From positions 1 to 64,000 of the forward strand of contig JAGNIU010000013.1 of assembly GCA_018000995.1 (NCBI GenBank): a stretch of 64,000 nt of DNA. Reading direction: 5' to 3'. The translations under genes were made by a program, and so were the position numbers. Below are positions 4,558 through 61,665 of this stretch, piece by piece. The stretch comes from Bacteroidia bacterium (GTDB taxonomy: Bacteria; Bacteroidota; Bacteroidia; B-17B0; Aurantibacillaceae). The number at the start of each line of letters is the position of its first letter. Within the stretch, counting starts at the first letter, position 1. The notes under the pieces are model-generated. The model made no database searches, had not been told where the DNA came from, and saw only the letters and a program-made list of their open reading frames with translations.

Positions 4558-4576
4558 CCCTTCGGTAAGCTCAGGG
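4558..4576 (-). repeat. GAGCTTGTCGA hairpin repeat, copy 1
   Basis: Read on the minus strand: CCCT, core GAGCTTACCGA, AGGG. The arms are perfectly complementary. It sits in the 125-bp gap between the SRD5A-like gene and the phosphatase stop. A spurious minus-strand frame across it would encode PALSLPKG. Confidence 0.8.
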
Positions 4577-16035: not shown

Positions 16036-17106
16036 GTGAGCAAAGAACTCAATCAAATACAATTAGATATTAAGAGGCGTCTCTTTAAACCCATTTATTT
16101 TTTATGTGGTGAAGAGCCGTATTATATTGATGTGATTTCTGATGCGCTCGAAAAATCAGTACTAGATGAGAACGAAAAAGAATTTAATCAAACCATTACT
16201 TACGGAAAAGACACCGACCTAGCTACCATTTTAAGTTTAGCGAAACAGTTTCCGATGATGAGCGAGTATCAGGTGGTAATTGTAAAAGAAGCTCAGAACA
16301 TAAAAGAATTAAATAAAAGTGCTGGCGATGATGATGAAGAGGATAATTCTAAATCATCAAAAAAATCAAACGCAACTGCTCAGTTTTTAGCTTATGTGCA
16401 GAGTCCACAACCAACAACTATTTTAGTTTTCTGTTACAAATACAAAACACTTGATAAACGTAGTGCTTTAGCAAAAGCCATTCAGAAAAATGCGGTTTAT
16501 GTAGAGTTCTCGAAACTATACGATAATCAAATTCCGGATTGGATTAATAATTACGTTAAAGAAAAAAAATACACTATTAATCCTAAAGCTTCTTTTTTAC
16601 TATCAGAATTTTTAGGAAGTGATTTATCTAAAATAGCCAATGAGATTGACAAGCTCGTTATTAATTTACAAGATGGGAGCGAAATTACTGCAGAATCAGT
16701 GCAAGACAATATTGGAATTAGTAAAGAGTATAACGTGTTTGAATTTCAGGATGCATTAGCAAAGAAAGATGTTTTAAAAGCCAATCGCATTATTAATTAT
16801 TTTGCTGCTAACGAAAAAGAACATCATCCTGTTATGATAACAGGGTCTTTATATGGCTACTTCTCAAAAATATTAAAATATCATTTCCTGGCCGATAAAA
16901 GTAAGTTTACAGCCGCGCAGGCTTTAGGTGTGAATCCGTTTTTTGTAGAGGGTTATGCAAGAGCAGCGGCTAATTACAATACCGGAAAACTAAAAAACAT
17001 ATTCGCATATTTAAAAGAATGCGATTTAAAAACCAAAGGTGTTGATAATACAGGCACACCGAATGGCGAACTTCTAAAAGAATTAGTGTTTAAGATTCTT
17101 CACTAA
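16036..17106 (+). CDS. holA: DNA polymerase III subunit delta
   Basis: A 356-residue clamp-loader delta subunit: KPIYFLCGEEPYYID at the N-terminus, VIVKEAQNIKEL, a central LSEFLGSDLSKIANEIDKLV segment and a C-terminal helical domain ending in TGTPNGELLKELVFKI. It works with gamma/tau and delta' to open the sliding clamp. The start is GTG at 16036, 3 bp after the ALDH stop; no ATG gives the conserved N-terminus. The Lys/Ser/Asp-rich insert near residues 98-116 looks like a flexible loop. Confidence 0.9.
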   Translation: MSKELNQIQLDIKRRLFKPIYFLCGEEPYYIDVISDALEKSVLDENEKEFNQTITYGKDTDLATILSLAKQFPMMSEYQVVIVKEAQNIKELNKSAGDDDEEDNSKSSKKSNATAQFLAYVQSPQPTTILVFCYKYKTLDKRSALAKAIQKNAVYVEFSKLYDNQIPDWINNYVKEKKYTINPKASFLLSEFLGSDLSKIANEIDKLVINLQDGSEITAESVQDNIGISKEYNVFEFQDALAKKDVLKANRIINYFAANEKEHHPVMITGSLYGYFSKILKYHFLADKSKFTAAQALGVNPFFVEGYARAAANYNTGKLKNIFAYLKECDLKTKGVDNTGTPNGELLKELVFKILH

Positions 17107-17125
17107 AAAATTACTTCAATTGTCA

Positions 17126-17144
17126 TCCTGAGCTTGTCGAAGGG
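17126..17144 (+). repeat. GAGCTTGTCGA hairpin repeat, copy 2
   Basis: TCCT, core GAGCTTGTCGA, AGGG; arms pair with one T-G wobble. It lies in the 100-bp gap between holA and the DUF4349 gene and shares the flank GTCA with the copy at 61647. Confidence 0.85.
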
Positions 17145-28517: not shown

Positions 28518-29783
28518 TTATAATCCTAATAATATTTCCTCCGGGTTTTTACCACCGAATAACATTTTGCTTGGGTTCTCAAGCATTTCTTTTACTTTCA
28601 CTAAGAAACCAACGCTTTCTTTTCCATCAATAATACGGTGATCGTAACTTAAAGCAATGTACATCATCGGACGAATTTTTACTTCTCCGTTAACAGCCAT
28701 TGGTCGGTCAACTACATTATGCATTCCTAAAATGGCACTCTGTGGTGGATTGATAATTGGTGTACTCATCATACTTCCAAAAACGCCGCCATTAGTAATC
28801 GTAAATGTTCCGCCTTCCATATCGGCAATAGTTAATTTACCATCGCGTGCTTTAATTGCTAATTCTTTTATACCTAATTCTATTTGCGCAAGACTCATTA
28901 ATTCTGCATTTCGTAATACCGGAACCATTAATCCTTTTGGAGCGCTTACCGCAATCCCAATATCACAATACTTGTTGTAAATAATTTCATCTCCGTCAAT
29001 CATTCCATTCACTGCAGGATAATGATATAAGGCTTCAGTAACTGCTTTCGTAAAGAAACTCATGAAACCAATGTTGCTTCCGTAAACTTCTTTAAATTTA
29101 TCTTTGTACTTAGCACGTATAGCGTAAATCGCACTCATATCAACTTCATTAAATGTAGTTAACATGGCTGTTTCGTTTTTCACAGCAACCAAACGTTTAG
29201 CAACTGTTTTACGAAGCGCAGTCATTTTTACTTTATCTTTTTCTCTTCCGCCCTTCCAACTATTTGAAAGCACTTCCTGTACATTTGGTAAACCATTCGA
29301 TAAAGCTGCTAACACATCTTGTTTTGTTATACGACCATCTTTACCGGTTCCATTTATCTGAGCTGATTTTACACCATTCTCATTCATAATTTTTGCTGCA
29401 GAAACGCTCGGCGTTCCTTTTGCATAACTCTCAGATTTTTCAACCACAGGAGTTGCAACGGCAACCTTTTTCTCTTCCTTCTTGGTCACTGAGCTTGTCG
29501 AAGTGTCAACCTTCGTTTCAGTTTTTGGTTTCGCTTCTGGTTTAAAAGAAGTATCAATCTTTACTACAACGGCTCCAACCTTTACAGTATCGCCTTCAGC
29601 TGCTAAAACTTCTATCTTTCCGCTTTCTTCAGCGTTTAGCGTTAAAGTTGCTTTATCTGAATCGATCTCGGCAAGAACTTCATCTTTTTCTACAACATCA
29701 CCACTTTTTCTAACCCAGCGCGCAATGGTTACTTCTGTAATCGATTCACCCGGACTTGGTACTTTTAATTCTACAATTGCCAT
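28518..29783 (-). CDS. odhB: 2-oxoglutarate dehydrogenase E2 (dihydrolipoyl succinyltransferase)
   Basis: A 421-residue E2. Lipoyl domain at residues 1-78 with the lipoyl Lys in EIDSDKATL (Lys44), a flexible Lys/Glu/Thr-rich linker (79-115), an E1/E3-binding domain (about 120-160, [20 protein letters not shown]) and the catalytic domain ending in [12 protein letters not shown] with the active-site His. It transfers the succinyl group to CoA in the TCA cycle. The linker residues TSTSSVT (94-100) are encoded by a copy of the GAGCTTGTCGA hairpin repeat on the opposite strand. The gene is 10 bp after odhA, an operon. Confidence 0.95.
29487..29505 (+). repeat. GAGCTTGTCGA hairpin repeat inside odhB, copy 3
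   Basis: CACT, core GAGCTTGTCGA, AGTG; arms perfectly complementary but different in sequence from the CCCT/AGGG copies. The coding strand of odhB reads TCG-ACA-AGC-TCA through the core, giving STSS in the interdomain linker. Confidence 0.85.
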
Positions 29784-43612: not shown

Positions 43613-45040
43613 TTAAATTTTCGAAGCTATATCAAACAACTTTCCTTCTTCGAAATAATTAGCCATTAGTTGAATCCCCATTGGTAAACCATTGCTGTGT
43701 TTACCACATGGAACAGAAATTGCAGGAACACCTGCGATGTTAGCTTGTACTGTAAAAATGTCTTCTAAATACATTTTAATAGGGTCAGCACTATTTTTTC
43801 CAAACTCAAATGCAGTTCCCGGAGTTGAAGGCGTCACAATAAAATCGTATTCCTTTAAAATATCGAATGTTTTTTGTTGTAATAGTTTTCTTACTTTTTG
43901 TCCTTTTGCATAATACGCATCGTAATAGCCAGCGCTCAATACAAAAGTGCCAAGCATGATACGGCGTTTTACTTCTTTACCAAAACCTTCGCTGCGTGAT
44001 TTTTTATATGTGCTTTCTAAATCTGTTGCTTTAGCTGTGCGGAAACCATAATGCACACCATCGAAACGCGAAAGATTTGATGAAGCTTCAGCCGTGGTTA
44101 AAACATAATATACAGGCACTAAAAAATCTAAGTAAGGAAAATCAACCGCTTTAACAGTATGACCTTGCTTTTTAAATTCTTCTAATTTATTTAAAACAGA
44201 TTGTTTCACTTCAGGATCTAAACCATTGGCTTCGATACAATCTTTTAAGTAAGCAATTTTATATTTGGTTGGTGAGCTTGTCGAACTATTGTTTTCTGAT
44301 GTTGTATAAGAAGGAACAGGTTTTTGTGAAGCGGTACTATCAAATTCATCGGCACCTGCAATTACTTCCATTACTAAAGCAGCATCTTCAACTGTCTTTG
44401 TAATTGGACCAATTTGATCGAATGAAGAAGCGTAGGCGATTAATCCCCAACGAGAAACTCTTCCGTAAGTCGGTTTAAATCCAACAACACCACAAAACGA
44501 AGCGGGCTGACGAATAGAACCACCTGTATCAGAACCTAAAGCTACGTGACAAAAATTTGCTGCAACCGAAGCTGCTGCTCCGCCCGATGAACCGCCTGGA
44601 ACAAACTTTTCGTTTAAAGGATTTAATACTTTTCCGTAAGCAGAATTTTCATTACTGCTTCCCATCGCGAACTCATCGCAATTTGTTCTGCCAATAATTA
44701 TTGCATCCTGCGCTAATAATTTTTCTACAACTGTTGCAGAGAATAGTGATTCAAATCCTTCAAGTATTTTTGATGAAGCCGAAACTTTATGTCCTTTGTA
44801 ACAGATATTATCTTTTAAAGCAACAATAACACCAGCTAATTTACCTGCAGTTTTGCTCTTAATTTTTTCGTCAATTTTTTGAGCTTGTTCTAAAGCACTT
44901 TTTTCAAATACTTCTAAAAAAACATTCAGGTTTTTCTTTTCTGAAATAGTCTTTAAAGTTTCGTTTAAAATAGAAACGCAATTGGTTTTCCCCGAAAGTA
45001 AATCGGCTTGCAAATTTTTTATGGAAGTAAATGTGTACAT
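43613..45040 (-). CDS. gatA: Asp-tRNA(Asn)/Glu-tRNA(Gln) amidotransferase subunit A
   Basis: A 475-residue amidase. The Ser-cis-Ser-Lys triad is visible: Lys76 in ALKDNICYKG, Ser151 in PGGSSGGAAASVA and Ser175 in GSDTGGSIRQPASFCG. GatA makes ammonia from glutamine to amidate mischarged Asp/Glu-tRNA with GatB and GatC, which are not in the window. The ATG at 45040 is chosen over 45061. A GAGCTTGTCGA hairpin copy encodes SSTSSPT (252-258) in a loop where homologues lack this stretch. The C-terminus, ending FDIASKI, is slightly short. Confidence 0.93.
   Translation of the reverse strand: MYTFTSIKNLQADLLSGKTNCVSILNETLKTISEKKNLNVFLEVFEKSALEQAQKIDEKIKSKTAGKLAGVIVALKDNICYKGHKVSASSKILEGFESLFSATVVEKLLAQDAIIIGRTNCDEFAMGSSNENSAYGKVLNPLNEKFVPGGSSGGAAASVAANFCHVALGSDTGGSIRQPASFCGVVGFKPTYGRVSRWGLIAYASSFDQIGPITKTVEDAALVMEVIAGADEFDSTASQKPVPSYTTSENNSSTSSPTKYKIAYLKDCIEANGLDPEVKQSVLNKLEEFKKQGHTVKAVDFPYLDFLVPVYYVLTTAEASSNLSRFDGVHYGFRTAKATDLESTYKKSRSEGFGKEVKRRIMLGTFVLSAGYYDAYYAKGQKVRKLLQQKTFDILKEYDFIVTPSTPGTAFEFGKNSADPIKMYLEDIFTVQANIAGVPAISVPCGKHSNGLPMGIQLMANYFEEGKLFDIASKI
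44270..44288 (+). repeat. GAGCTTGTCGA hairpin repeat inside gatA, copy 4
   Basis: TGGT, core GAGCTTGTCGA, ACTA; arms pair with one G-T wobble and again differ in sequence from other copies. The gatA strand reads TCG-ACA-AGC-TCA, the same phase as in odhB. Confidence 0.85.
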
Positions 45041-59327: not shown

Positions 59328-60836
59328 ATGCCAATTATAAATTCCATAGCATCATGGCTCATGAAAAAGCGTCTGCATCAGATAGAGCTTTTTGTGAAAT
59401 ACCCGCATGATGTTCAGGAAGAATGGATGTTTAAATTATTATCGGAAGCAAAAGATACAGAATTTGGAAAACGTCATCACTTTAGCGCCATAAAAAACTA
59501 CGAGCAATTTAAACGTAATATTCCTTTACAGGATTACGAAAGTTTAAAACCTTCGATAGAACTGACTCGTCGTGGCGCGCAAAACTTATTATGGCCTGGC
59601 GAAATAAAATGGTTCGCTAAAAGTAGTGGTACAACAGACAAAAGTAAATTTATTCCCGTTAGCGCTGAATCTTTAGATGGTTGTCATTATAATGCAGGAC
59701 GCGATATGGTAACTTTACATTGCGTAAATAATCCCGAGACTCTATTATTTACAGGAAAAAATTTAGCGTTGGGCGGAAGTTTTAAAACAGATGTATTTGG
59801 TAATCATAATTCATTTCATGGCGATGTAAGTGCTATCATCATTCAAAATCTTCCTATGTGGGCAGAGTTTTTCAGAGCGCCGGATGTAAATATTGCATTG
59901 ATGGACGAATGGGAAAGCAAGTTGCAGAAAATGGCTGAGACTATGATGAATGAAAATGTAACGAGTCTTGCCGGCGTACCAAGTTGGATGTTGGTGTTAC
60001 TGAAAAAAGTGCTTCAACTAAAAAATGCAAAAACTATTGATGAAGTCTGGCCGAACTTAGAAGTGTATTTTCATGGCGGTGTAAGTTTTACTCCCTATAA
60101 AGAACAATTCCGGCAATTATTCAATAACGATAAGATCAATTATATTCAGATGTACAGTGCTTCCGAGGGATTTTTTGGAATTCAAGATGTACCAGGTCGA
60201 AATGATATGCTCTTGATGTTGGATTATGGTATTTTTTATGAGTTCATTCCTATTGAAGATATTGGTTTAGAAGATCCTCGCGTTTATAATTTATCAGAGG
60301 TAAAAACAGGTCTAAATTATGCGATGGTGATTACAACAAATGCGGGATTATGGCGTTATCAGATTGGTGACACCGTTCAATTTACAGATACAAATCCGTA
60401 TCGCATTATTGTTTCTGGTCGCACTAAACATTTTATAAATGTATTTGGAGAGGAAGTAATGGTTCATAATACCGATCAAGCCATTTTTAAAGCCTGCGAA
60501 AAAACACATGCTATGGTTTCAGATTATACTGTTGCACCAGTTTATATGAACGAAACCAGCGGTTCACACGAATGGCTAATTGAATTTGAAAAAGAGCCGG
60601 ATGATTTTGAGTTTTTTGTAAAGGAGTTAGATTCATGTTTAAAACAATTAAACTCCGATTACGAAGCTAAACGTTATAACGATTATGTGTTAAAATCACC
60701 AATAGTAAAATTATTGCCAAAAGGCAGTTTTTACAATTGGCTAAAATCAAACAACCGCTTAGGCGGACAATTTAAAGTGCCCCGCTTAAATAATGGCAGG
60801 GAATTTGTAGATAGTATTAGTAAATCAGTTCTGTGA
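59328..60836 (+). CDS. GH3 auxin-responsive promoter family protein
   Basis: A 502-residue GH3-family acyl-adenylate enzyme: WFAKSSGTTDKSKFIPVS (ATP-binding motif I), YSASEGFFGIQD (motif II), TNAGLWRYQIGDTVQF (motif III with the adenylate Asp) and VFGEEVMVHN. Plant homologues join amino acids to jasmonate or auxin; bacterial members are known but their substrates are not. The next gene overlaps its stop (GTGA). Confidence 0.9.
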   Translation: MPIINSIASWLMKKRLHQIELFVKYPHDVQEEWMFKLLSEAKDTEFGKRHHFSAIKNYEQFKRNIPLQDYESLKPSIELTRRGAQNLLWPGEIKWFAKSSGTTDKSKFIPVSAESLDGCHYNAGRDMVTLHCVNNPETLLFTGKNLALGGSFKTDVFGNHNSFHGDVSAIIIQNLPMWAEFFRAPDVNIALMDEWESKLQKMAETMMNENVTSLAGVPSWMLVLLKKVLQLKNAKTIDEVWPNLEVYFHGGVSFTPYKEQFRQLFNNDKINYIQMYSASEGFFGIQDVPGRNDMLLMLDYGIFYEFIPIEDIGLEDPRVYNLSEVKTGLNYAMVITTNAGLWRYQIGDTVQFTDTNPYRIIVSGRTKHFINVFGEEVMVHNTDQAIFKACEKTHAMVSDYTVAPVYMNETSGSHEWLIEFEKEPDDFEFFVKELDSCLKQLNSDYEAKRYNDYVLKSPIVKLLPKGSFYNWLKSNNRLGGQFKVPRLNNGREFVDSISKSVL

Positions 60837-61636
60837 GAAGAATTTTAAAATATAGTTTCATTGTTTTAATCTGCCTTAGCAGTTTAGCTTTTATTGTTAA
60901 AGACGGTAAAACACTTTATACTATAAAACACGCTTTCAATATATTTACCAGCGATAATCTTAGTAATATTTACTTAATAAACGGTGAAGAACTAATAAAG
61001 TACAACGCCACCGGAAAACAATTATTAAAATACAGCAACAAACGCTACGGTAACATTACCACCATTGATGCCACCAACGCTTTAAAGATTTTACTGTATT
61101 ACAAAGATTTTCAGCAATTGATTTTTTTAGATAGTCAGCTCTCACAAAACGGAGATGCCATTTCCTTAGAAAGTTTAGGTTACGAACAAACCGATTTAGT
61201 TTGTACATCGTTTAGCAATGGTTTCTGGATTTATAATAAACAAACCAACGAATTAATTCGCTTCGGCCAGAATTCGCAAGCCATTGCAAAAACCGGAAAC
61301 TTAAAACAATTATTACAAGCAGAATTGAAGCCGGATTTTATGACTGAACACAATAGTTACTTGTATTTAAATTGTCCGGATATTGGTGTTTACGTTTTTG
61401 ATATGTATGGCACTTTTAATAAAATAATAAGTCTTAAACACCTGCCCGCTTTTCAAGTGAGTAACAACATTCTTTATTTTTATAAAGACAATAAATTTTG
61501 TTCCTACAACACAAAAGCGTTTGAGGAGCGTTGCATCCCTTATAACGACACTTTAATCAAGAACATCCGGATTGAAAAAGACCGTCTTTTTCTACAGTAC
61601 GTCGACTCGATAAAAACCATTGAGAATTTACCATAA
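60833..61636 (+). CDS. Membrane-anchored or secreted beta-propeller-like protein
   Basis: A 267-residue protein from GTG 60833, overlapping the GH3 stop. The N-terminus (YSFIVLICLSSLAFIV) is a signal or anchor. Repeating segments (NIYLINGEELIKYNATGKQL, FWIYNKQTNELIRFG, GVYVFDMYGTFNKII) look like propeller blades, as in proteins that track a signal or transport. No family recognised. A hairpin repeat and a weak terminator follow. Confidence 0.7.
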   Translation: MRRILKYSFIVLICLSSLAFIVKDGKTLYTIKHAFNIFTSDNLSNIYLINGEELIKYNATGKQLLKYSNKRYGNITTIDATNALKILLYYKDFQQLIFLDSQLSQNGDAISLESLGYEQTDLVCTSFSNGFWIYNKQTNELIRFGQNSQAIAKTGNLKQLLQAELKPDFMTEHNSYLYLNCPDIGVYVFDMYGTFNKIISLKHLPAFQVSNNILYFYKDNKFCSYNTKAFEERCIPYNDTLIKNIRIEKDRLFLQYVDSIKTIENLP

Positions 61637-61646
61637 TTTGCCGTCA

Positions 61647-61665
61647 TCCTGAGCTTGCCGAAGGG
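61647..61665 (+). repeat. GAGCTTGTCGA hairpin repeat, copy 5
   Basis: TCCT, core GAGCTTGCCGA, AGGG; arms pair with one T-G wobble. Intergenic, 10 bp after the preceding stop. Confidence 0.85.

Follow-up and report, generated by a model that had tools for sequence, protein, structure and literature searches.

The DNA analyzed here, a 64,000-nucleotide stretch of a Bacteroidia bacterium contig (hereafter the window), carries at positions 17,126 to 17,144 a short hairpin that recurs elsewhere in the same window, which raises the question of what kind of element it is and which enzyme, if any, it belongs to. A sequence-only reading had described five copies of 19 bp, each with 4-nt arms around an 11-nt core, and all five were recovered at the positions listed in Table 1. 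The arms were also as described, with CCCT/AGGG, TCCT/AGGG with one wobble, CACT/AGTG, and TGGT/ACTA with one wobble. With at most one mismatch allowed, the core GAGCTTGYCGA matched the window six times, whereas shuffled sequences averaged 0.91 matches. The match additional to the five copies, at 16646 (GAGCTTGTCAA), had no arms. The core of the 4558 copy was one base off GAGCTTGNCGA, the exact core used for the genome-wide counts below. The 29487 copy is located in the linker between the lipoyl and E3-binding domains of the E2 subunit, where the minus strand encodes DTSTSSV. When folded as DNA, the window copies were weak (−1.2 to 0 kcal/mol) and did no better than shuffled sequences (three of the five copies tested), under standard DNA parameters that give no credit to possible sheared G-A pairs. 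Therefore, the evidence for structure comes from the genome-wide set and not from these five copies.

Table 1. Hairpin copies in the window and the unpaired tags on their 5′ sides
Feature	Position	Strand	Context
CCCT-GAGCTTACCGA-AGGG	4558..4576	-	CCTG in tag position; intergenic, convergent genes on either side
5′ unpaired tag GTCA (GTC subfamily)	17122..17125	+	defined tag position, from sequence
TCCT-GAGCTTGTCGA-AGGG	17126..17144	+	about 20 bp past the stop of the DNA polymerase III delta gene (16036-17106)
5′ tag TGGT (YGG subfamily)	29483..29486	+	
CACT-GAGCTTGTCGA-AGTG	29487..29505	+	in frame within the 2-oxoacid dehydrogenase E2 gene (28518-29783, minus)
5′ tag TGGT (YGG subfamily)	44266..44269	+	
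TGGT-GAGCTTGTCGA-ACTA	44270..44288	+	in frame within gatA (43613-45040, minus), variable loop
5′ tag GTCA (CGTC at 61642-61645)	61643..61646	+	GTC-type
TCCT-GAGCTTGCCGA-AGGG	61647..61665	+	about 10 bp past the stop of ORF 60833-61636

The survey of the whole source genome (3.61 Mb in 77 contigs) yielded 112 exact copies of GAGCTTGNCGA and none of the reversed-pattern control. The variable base of the motif was T in 55 copies, C in 38, and A in 19, GAGCTTGTCGA occurred 55 times in the genome, and the motif extended to TGAGCTTGNCGAA in 109 of the 112 copies. Watson–Crick complementarity at arm positions 1 to 4 was 97, 98, 93, and 82%, compared with 96, 60, 35, and 30% for shuffled partners. Positions 2 to 4 were all paired in 86 of the 112 copies, whereas 5000 shuffles gave a mean of 10.1 and a maximum of 23. 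The comparison with shuffled controls had been fixed beforehand as the check on arm complementarity, and in view of this clear excess the observation of covarying arms stands. Since the arms covary far beyond shuffles, a paired form of the repeat is conserved. The earlier division into an 11-nt core and 4-nt arms needs one correction: the closing T-A pair hardly varies and the conserved block is therefore 13 nt long, with the covarying arm beyond it.

The hairpin unit has an unpaired 5′ tag and a short stem whose pairs covary freely, and its variable loop is enclosed by a constant TGAG/CGAA frame; the most constant feature of the repeat is the GA that flanks the loop at either end. Strictly paired arms were mostly 4–8 bp long, and only by counting G-A as stem does the loop inside the G-C pair come to 5 nt (CTTGN). 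The tags of the 112 copies were YGG in 45, GTC in 31, CYTG in 13, and other sequences in 23. In inverted pairs of YGG copies, the tags faced inward in 14 of 14 cases at distances of 37–76 bp, and only 2 of 21 inverted pairs had the same 4-nt arm. Together with the quadruple repeat units around one of the nuclease genes described below (on contig C69), these pairs show the inverted pair recurring as a unit, in the manner of REPIN- or MITE-like elements. A literature search with the motif sequence returned only primers and unrelated matches. As a separate observation, another genome carries seven same-strand TGAGCTTGNCGAA copies at a spacing of 111–112 bp (G320:C1:438775-439457), forming a tandem array that contains the hairpin.

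Short extragenic palindromes in inverted pairs resemble REP elements, and the sequence-only reading had pointed to a linked REP-associated tyrosine transposase (RAYT) of the Y1 type as the possible mover. The genome does contain three Y1_Tnp genes, but all three lack an armed copy in the surrounding 1.5 kb or so, two of their products are IS200-like proteins of 148–154 aa, and the tag is YGG or GTC instead of GTAG. The linkage that was observed is to GIY-YIG genes. The RAYT was consequently rejected as the mover, and we find mobilization of this kind hardly credible. The repeats might instead act at the RNA level, being kept for gene expression as terminators or stabilizers of mRNA 3′ ends, as the wobble pairs in the arms and the position of three of the five window copies directly past stop codons would allow. 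Against such a role, some copies lie within genes, the strands are used about equally by the 112 copies (54 and 58), single copies fold weakly (DNA parameters), and no T-run follows the 17126 copy. A known RNA family was also dismissed, as the window had no Rfam match, and an RNA element would leave unexplained the correspondence between nuclease and loop that is presented below. We therefore regard an RNA-level function as very unlikely.

The GIY-YIG gene scan of the source genome identified ten genes. The best of the ten is C64:104915-105133, with a product of about 115 aa and six hairpins distributed over both sides. The gene C69:58179-58391 has nine hairpins, in arrays on both sides, with the core GAGCTTG[A/C]CGA. 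The two proteins are 46% identical and matched Pfam PF01541 as their sole Pfam family (E = 5.5e-18 and 3.2e-16), with no match in NCBIfam, PADLOC, or PHROGs. The catalytic GIY-YIG residues Y, Y, G, R, H, and E are invariant, and the tail following the catalytic domain had a pLDDT of about 50–69, being disordered in the prediction made without DNA. Two side observations concern other GIY-YIG genes. The L048 gene (C12, at about 14 kb) is flanked by two inverted TCCAACGTCA pairs at 1397, 1476, 1815, and 1894 of that locus, possibly a repeat type of its own. A TGCTACAA..TGTAGCAAG-like palindrome lies upstream of three GIY-YIG genes of the source genome (L047, about 1750-1780; L049, about 1325-1352; L048, 1284-1302) and may be an operator or promoter element that they share.

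The linkage between hairpin and nuclease was examined across bacteria by scanning one genome for each species, which gave 80 named loci of the nuclease clade. They came mostly from Bacteroidota, with others labelled Leptospiraceae, Spirochaetia, Anaerolineales, Cloacimonadota, Calditrichia, Sulfurovum, and Gammaproteobacteria, labels that carry the usual risk because many of the sources are metagenome bins. Using the pattern arm-TGAG-N(4-14)-CGAA-arm, the hairpin density was 4.76 per kb within 300 bp of the gene and 1.23 per kb at 300–600 bp, falling further to 0.15, 0.11, and finally 0.074 per kb at 2.5–6 kb. The density within 300 bp was thus 64 times that at 2.5–6 kb, and the reversed-pattern control found none near the gene. 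A hairpin was present within 600 bp in 73 of the 80 loci, and on both sides in 49. Since the TGAG..CGAA pattern presupposes the frame, an unbiased search was also run for any stem of at least 7 bp with any loop of 9–19 nt. GAG..CGA loops made up 152 of the 251 hairpins near the nuclease but only 7 of 154 far from it, which upholds the constant flanking GA noted in the earlier reading; the tandem G-A pairs that it had proposed are compatible with these flanks.

At the level of whole genomes, the close nuclease clade was present in 15 of 37 genomes rich in the 13-mer and in 54 of 358 others (odds ratio 3.8, p =.0004). In the other 22 of the 37 motif-rich genomes, either the nuclease has been lost or other enzymes serve the repeats. 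Carriage of the nuclease by plasmids or phages was negligible, the only records being distant ones, 3 from plasmids and 14 from phages.

The loops can be sorted into classes, one of which usually predominates at a given locus. Within a locus, the loop class was identical in 0.73 of hairpin pairs, compared with 0.27 after shuffling. In the 65 loci whose loop could be classified, the protein columns that carried most information on the loop class all fell just past the catalytic domain, mostly at residues 82–94. Loops of the form CGNAGY went with the tail C-x-N-x-[T/S]-H (C and N in 31 of 31), GNNYY loops with A-Y-R-D (A in 19, R in 18, and D in 19 of 20), and CYTGN loops, the class of the window, with K-N-Y-x-Q (N in 10 of 14). 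In the training set, agreement at classifiable loci was 30/30 for C-x-N, 18/19 for AYR, and 9/9 for KN. The rule was written down before unseen loci were retrieved. In the unseen loci L207-L266, it held in 16 of 16 cases where motif and loop were both classifiable, a pass that used a profile, an anchored tail motif, and one loop class widened to CGNAG[CTA] after an earlier pass had been seen; under the strict loop class, the result was 13 of 13. Adding the previously seen unnamed loci gave 26 of 26 (permutation maximum 20), the L058-L086 part of this hold-out not being blind, as its flanks had been seen earlier. The core-domain tree had few supported branches, with the loop class changing 40 times, and well-supported branches provided only one or two independent contrasts, which leaves that test underpowered. 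In the source genome, the C64 nuclease follows the rule, with the tail KNRTQYP and CTTGT loops, while the C69 tail RSKSN falls outside all three motifs and its loop class is not predicted. The tail of the enzyme predicts the loop of the surrounding hairpins, which suggests an enzyme-to-DNA recognition code that can be read from the protein.

Some loci stand apart from the three classes. Nucleases whose tail has KK followed by F or W mostly had no TGAG..CGAA hairpins of ordinary loop length; L064, L070, L071, L077, L075, L085, L230, and L249 were flanked by TGAGTAGC..GTATCGAA with long loops or by GTATCGAGAAC. Such tails and their own repeats could form a fourth class of the code. At L084 (G281), the AYRD motif is read out of frame despite flanking GNNYY loops, which suggests that this nuclease gene is frameshifted and perhaps decaying.

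The tag showed a second correspondence, with the clade of the nuclease. Clade 1 nucleases, with S after YYTG, had [C/T/A]GG in the tag position, and clade 2 nucleases, with V, F, M, or I after YYTG, had the GTCA tag; the GTC tag was found at 28 of 34 clade 2 loci versus 1 of 88 clade 1 loci. The source genome contains both sets. At core position 8, YGG-tagged copies had T in 44 of 45 cases and GTC-tagged copies had C or A in 30 of 31, the 17126 copy being the sole GTC-tagged one with T. These two combinations of tag and core match the flanks of the C64 (clade 1, YGG) and C69 (clade 2, GTC) nucleases, respectively. Accordingly typed by their tags, the window copies at 29487 and 44270 are YGG, those at 17126 and 61647 are GTC, and the one at 4558 is CCTG.

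It may be asked whether the repeats and the nuclease genes simply travel together, through hitchhiking or shared insertion hot spots, with no recognition between them. The tail codons and the downstream repeat are frequently only tens of bases apart (median 30 nt), so that physical linkage contributes and some co-inheritance is expected. However, hairpins upstream of the gene, taken alone, also agreed with the tail in 148 of 163 cases, which argues against simple linkage of the tail codons to the adjoining repeat. The loop-tail rule holds within clade 1 and clade 2 separately, constraint acts on loop and tag but leaves the stem sequence free, and the two repeat sets of one genome match its two nucleases. 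Co-travel is consequently quite unlikely as the explanation. A regulatory or restriction-like function is a different matter, since it is compatible with the main explanation: the nuclease would mark self through its repeats and limit the uptake or integration of single-stranded DNA. The Ssn nuclease of Neisseria is said to modulate natural transformation through its repeats, which speaks for such a role, whereas the nucleases described here had no PADLOC match. We consider this role possible, although we would not favor it.

Copies within genes provide evidence for movement of the repeats. In the source genome, an inverted repeat pair sits in frame in priA (contig C64; L041 3221-5842), where it adds about 25 residues in the helicase region. 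The same site is filled in the source genome and two congeners (L283-L285) and empty in L286, L287, L288, and L290. Likewise, the gatA site is filled in the source genome (L267) and in L268, and it has no hairpin in two congeners (L269 and L272). Copies are therefore present or absent at the same site in relatives, as is characteristic of mobile repeats, and they have been gained and lost in frame within genes among congeners. Their in-frame entry into essential genes (priA, gatA, and the E2 subunit) shows such elements reshaping proteins.

The reading that we prefer, with a probability of roughly 0.75 for the whole including the proposed recognition and spread, is that the repeats are dispersed hairpin sites of small resident GIY-YIG nucleases. 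Most likely, they are the hairpin target sites of cognate Ssn-like nucleases, with cleavage being what we infer from the correspondences above. Each nuclease gene lies among clustered repeats of its own type. When a repeat becomes single-stranded, on the lagging strand or during repair or uptake, it would fold into the hairpin, which the cognate nuclease would most likely bind and nick. Recognition would have three parts: the core or clade would go with the tag, the short post-catalytic tail would go with the loop, and the stem would be needed only as a pair. A free but paired stem, a constant GAG..CGA, a loop matched to the tail, and a tag matched to the clade are what an enzyme specific for both structure and sequence would impose on a folded strand. 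Repair of the nick may then copy or move the repeats, singly or as inverted pairs, and bring about their spread, with the genome copies distant from the nuclease as its putative non-autonomous dependants. A GIY-YIG enzyme cuts DNA and is not known to rejoin it, which weighs against this account at the step from the nick to a new copy.

The correspondences also bear on palindromes in general. With a linked nuclease whose tail predicts the loop, the upkeep and spread of such palindromes can be tested directly, using a single small protein and hairpins made synthetically. The results suggest a family of hairpin-specific DNA nucleases with targets that can be read from sequence. A modular code, in which the tag is read by the core and the loop by a tail of about eight residues, leaving the stem free, may explain dispersed palindromes of many phyla including the CGTC-tagged REPs, a generalization that we hold at slightly better than even; if true, it would let the hairpin target be predicted from the protein sequence of the nuclease.

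Among the closest known systems are the Ssn enzymes, reportedly described in Nat Commun in 2025 as GIY-YIG nucleases with many homologues that cut single-stranded DNA at a dispersed Neisseria repeat. Both systems combine a small GIY-YIG protein with a dispersed palindromic repeat and putative recognition, and the present nucleases have the GIY-YIG domain with invariant catalytic residues; the loop-tail and tag-clade correspondences are not known to have been reported for Ssn. Of the solved structures, 1zg2 and 1ywl, both UPF0213 proteins, come closest in sequence as well as in fold, and neither of these GIY-YIG entries is known to be described with a linked repeat or specificity tail. The family shares with RAYTs, GTAG REPs, and REPINs the arrangement of a resident, single-copy enzyme gene from which non-autonomous hairpins are dispersed in inverted pairs. 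It differs in having another tag and a GIY-YIG enzyme in place of HUH/Y1, with neither the GTAG tag nor the flanked Y1 transposase that define GTAG REPs.

Short palindromes inserted in frame in genes are also known as RPE-4 and RPE-6 of Rickettsia, whose sequence differs (PMC3733652). Another of the closest known systems is the superfamily of CGTC-tagged REPs, which was defined in five phyla including Bacteroidetes, with a stem of 8–9 bp and a loop of 4–5 nt, and apparently has no dedicated transposase (Di Nocera et al., 2013, PMC3733652). The view of the sequence-only reading that the family has no accepted name must be qualified accordingly: the GTC-tagged copies fit this superfamily. The GTC subfamily has the unpaired CGTC/TGTC tag followed by AT, a short stem, and a loop of 5 nt if the G-A positions are taken as stem, and it shares inverted dimers, intragenic copies, Bacteroidetes hosts, and the lack of a RAYT with the published elements (PMC3733652). 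The GTC tag, however, marks one subfamily only (31 of the 112 copies). Unlike CGTC REPs, the window family shows G-A positions in tandem and has no more than 4–8 variable stem pairs, its larger subfamily is YGG-tagged and forms pairs with inward tags (14/14), and its repeats flank GIY-YIG genes where no associated transposase was reported for the published ones (PMC3733652). Beside distant alphaproteobacterial and clostridial relatives (L303-L305), a look for CGTC REPs gave nothing clear. A third GIY-YIG clade had a GTC-tagged hairpin within 450 bp in 27 of 30 loci, most of these hairpins being classic CGTC REPs; one of its members, L054 of the source genome (C5, about 94.9–95.3 kb), is flanked by hairpins such as GTC-ATCCCGAA-CTTGT-TTCGGGAT at 1446-1466 and 1781-1801. 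Palindromes of the CGTC and related types are found across many phyla and have been described as lacking a dedicated enzyme, and given the position of the third clade beside CGTC REPs, their absent partner is probably a family of GIY-YIG nucleases.
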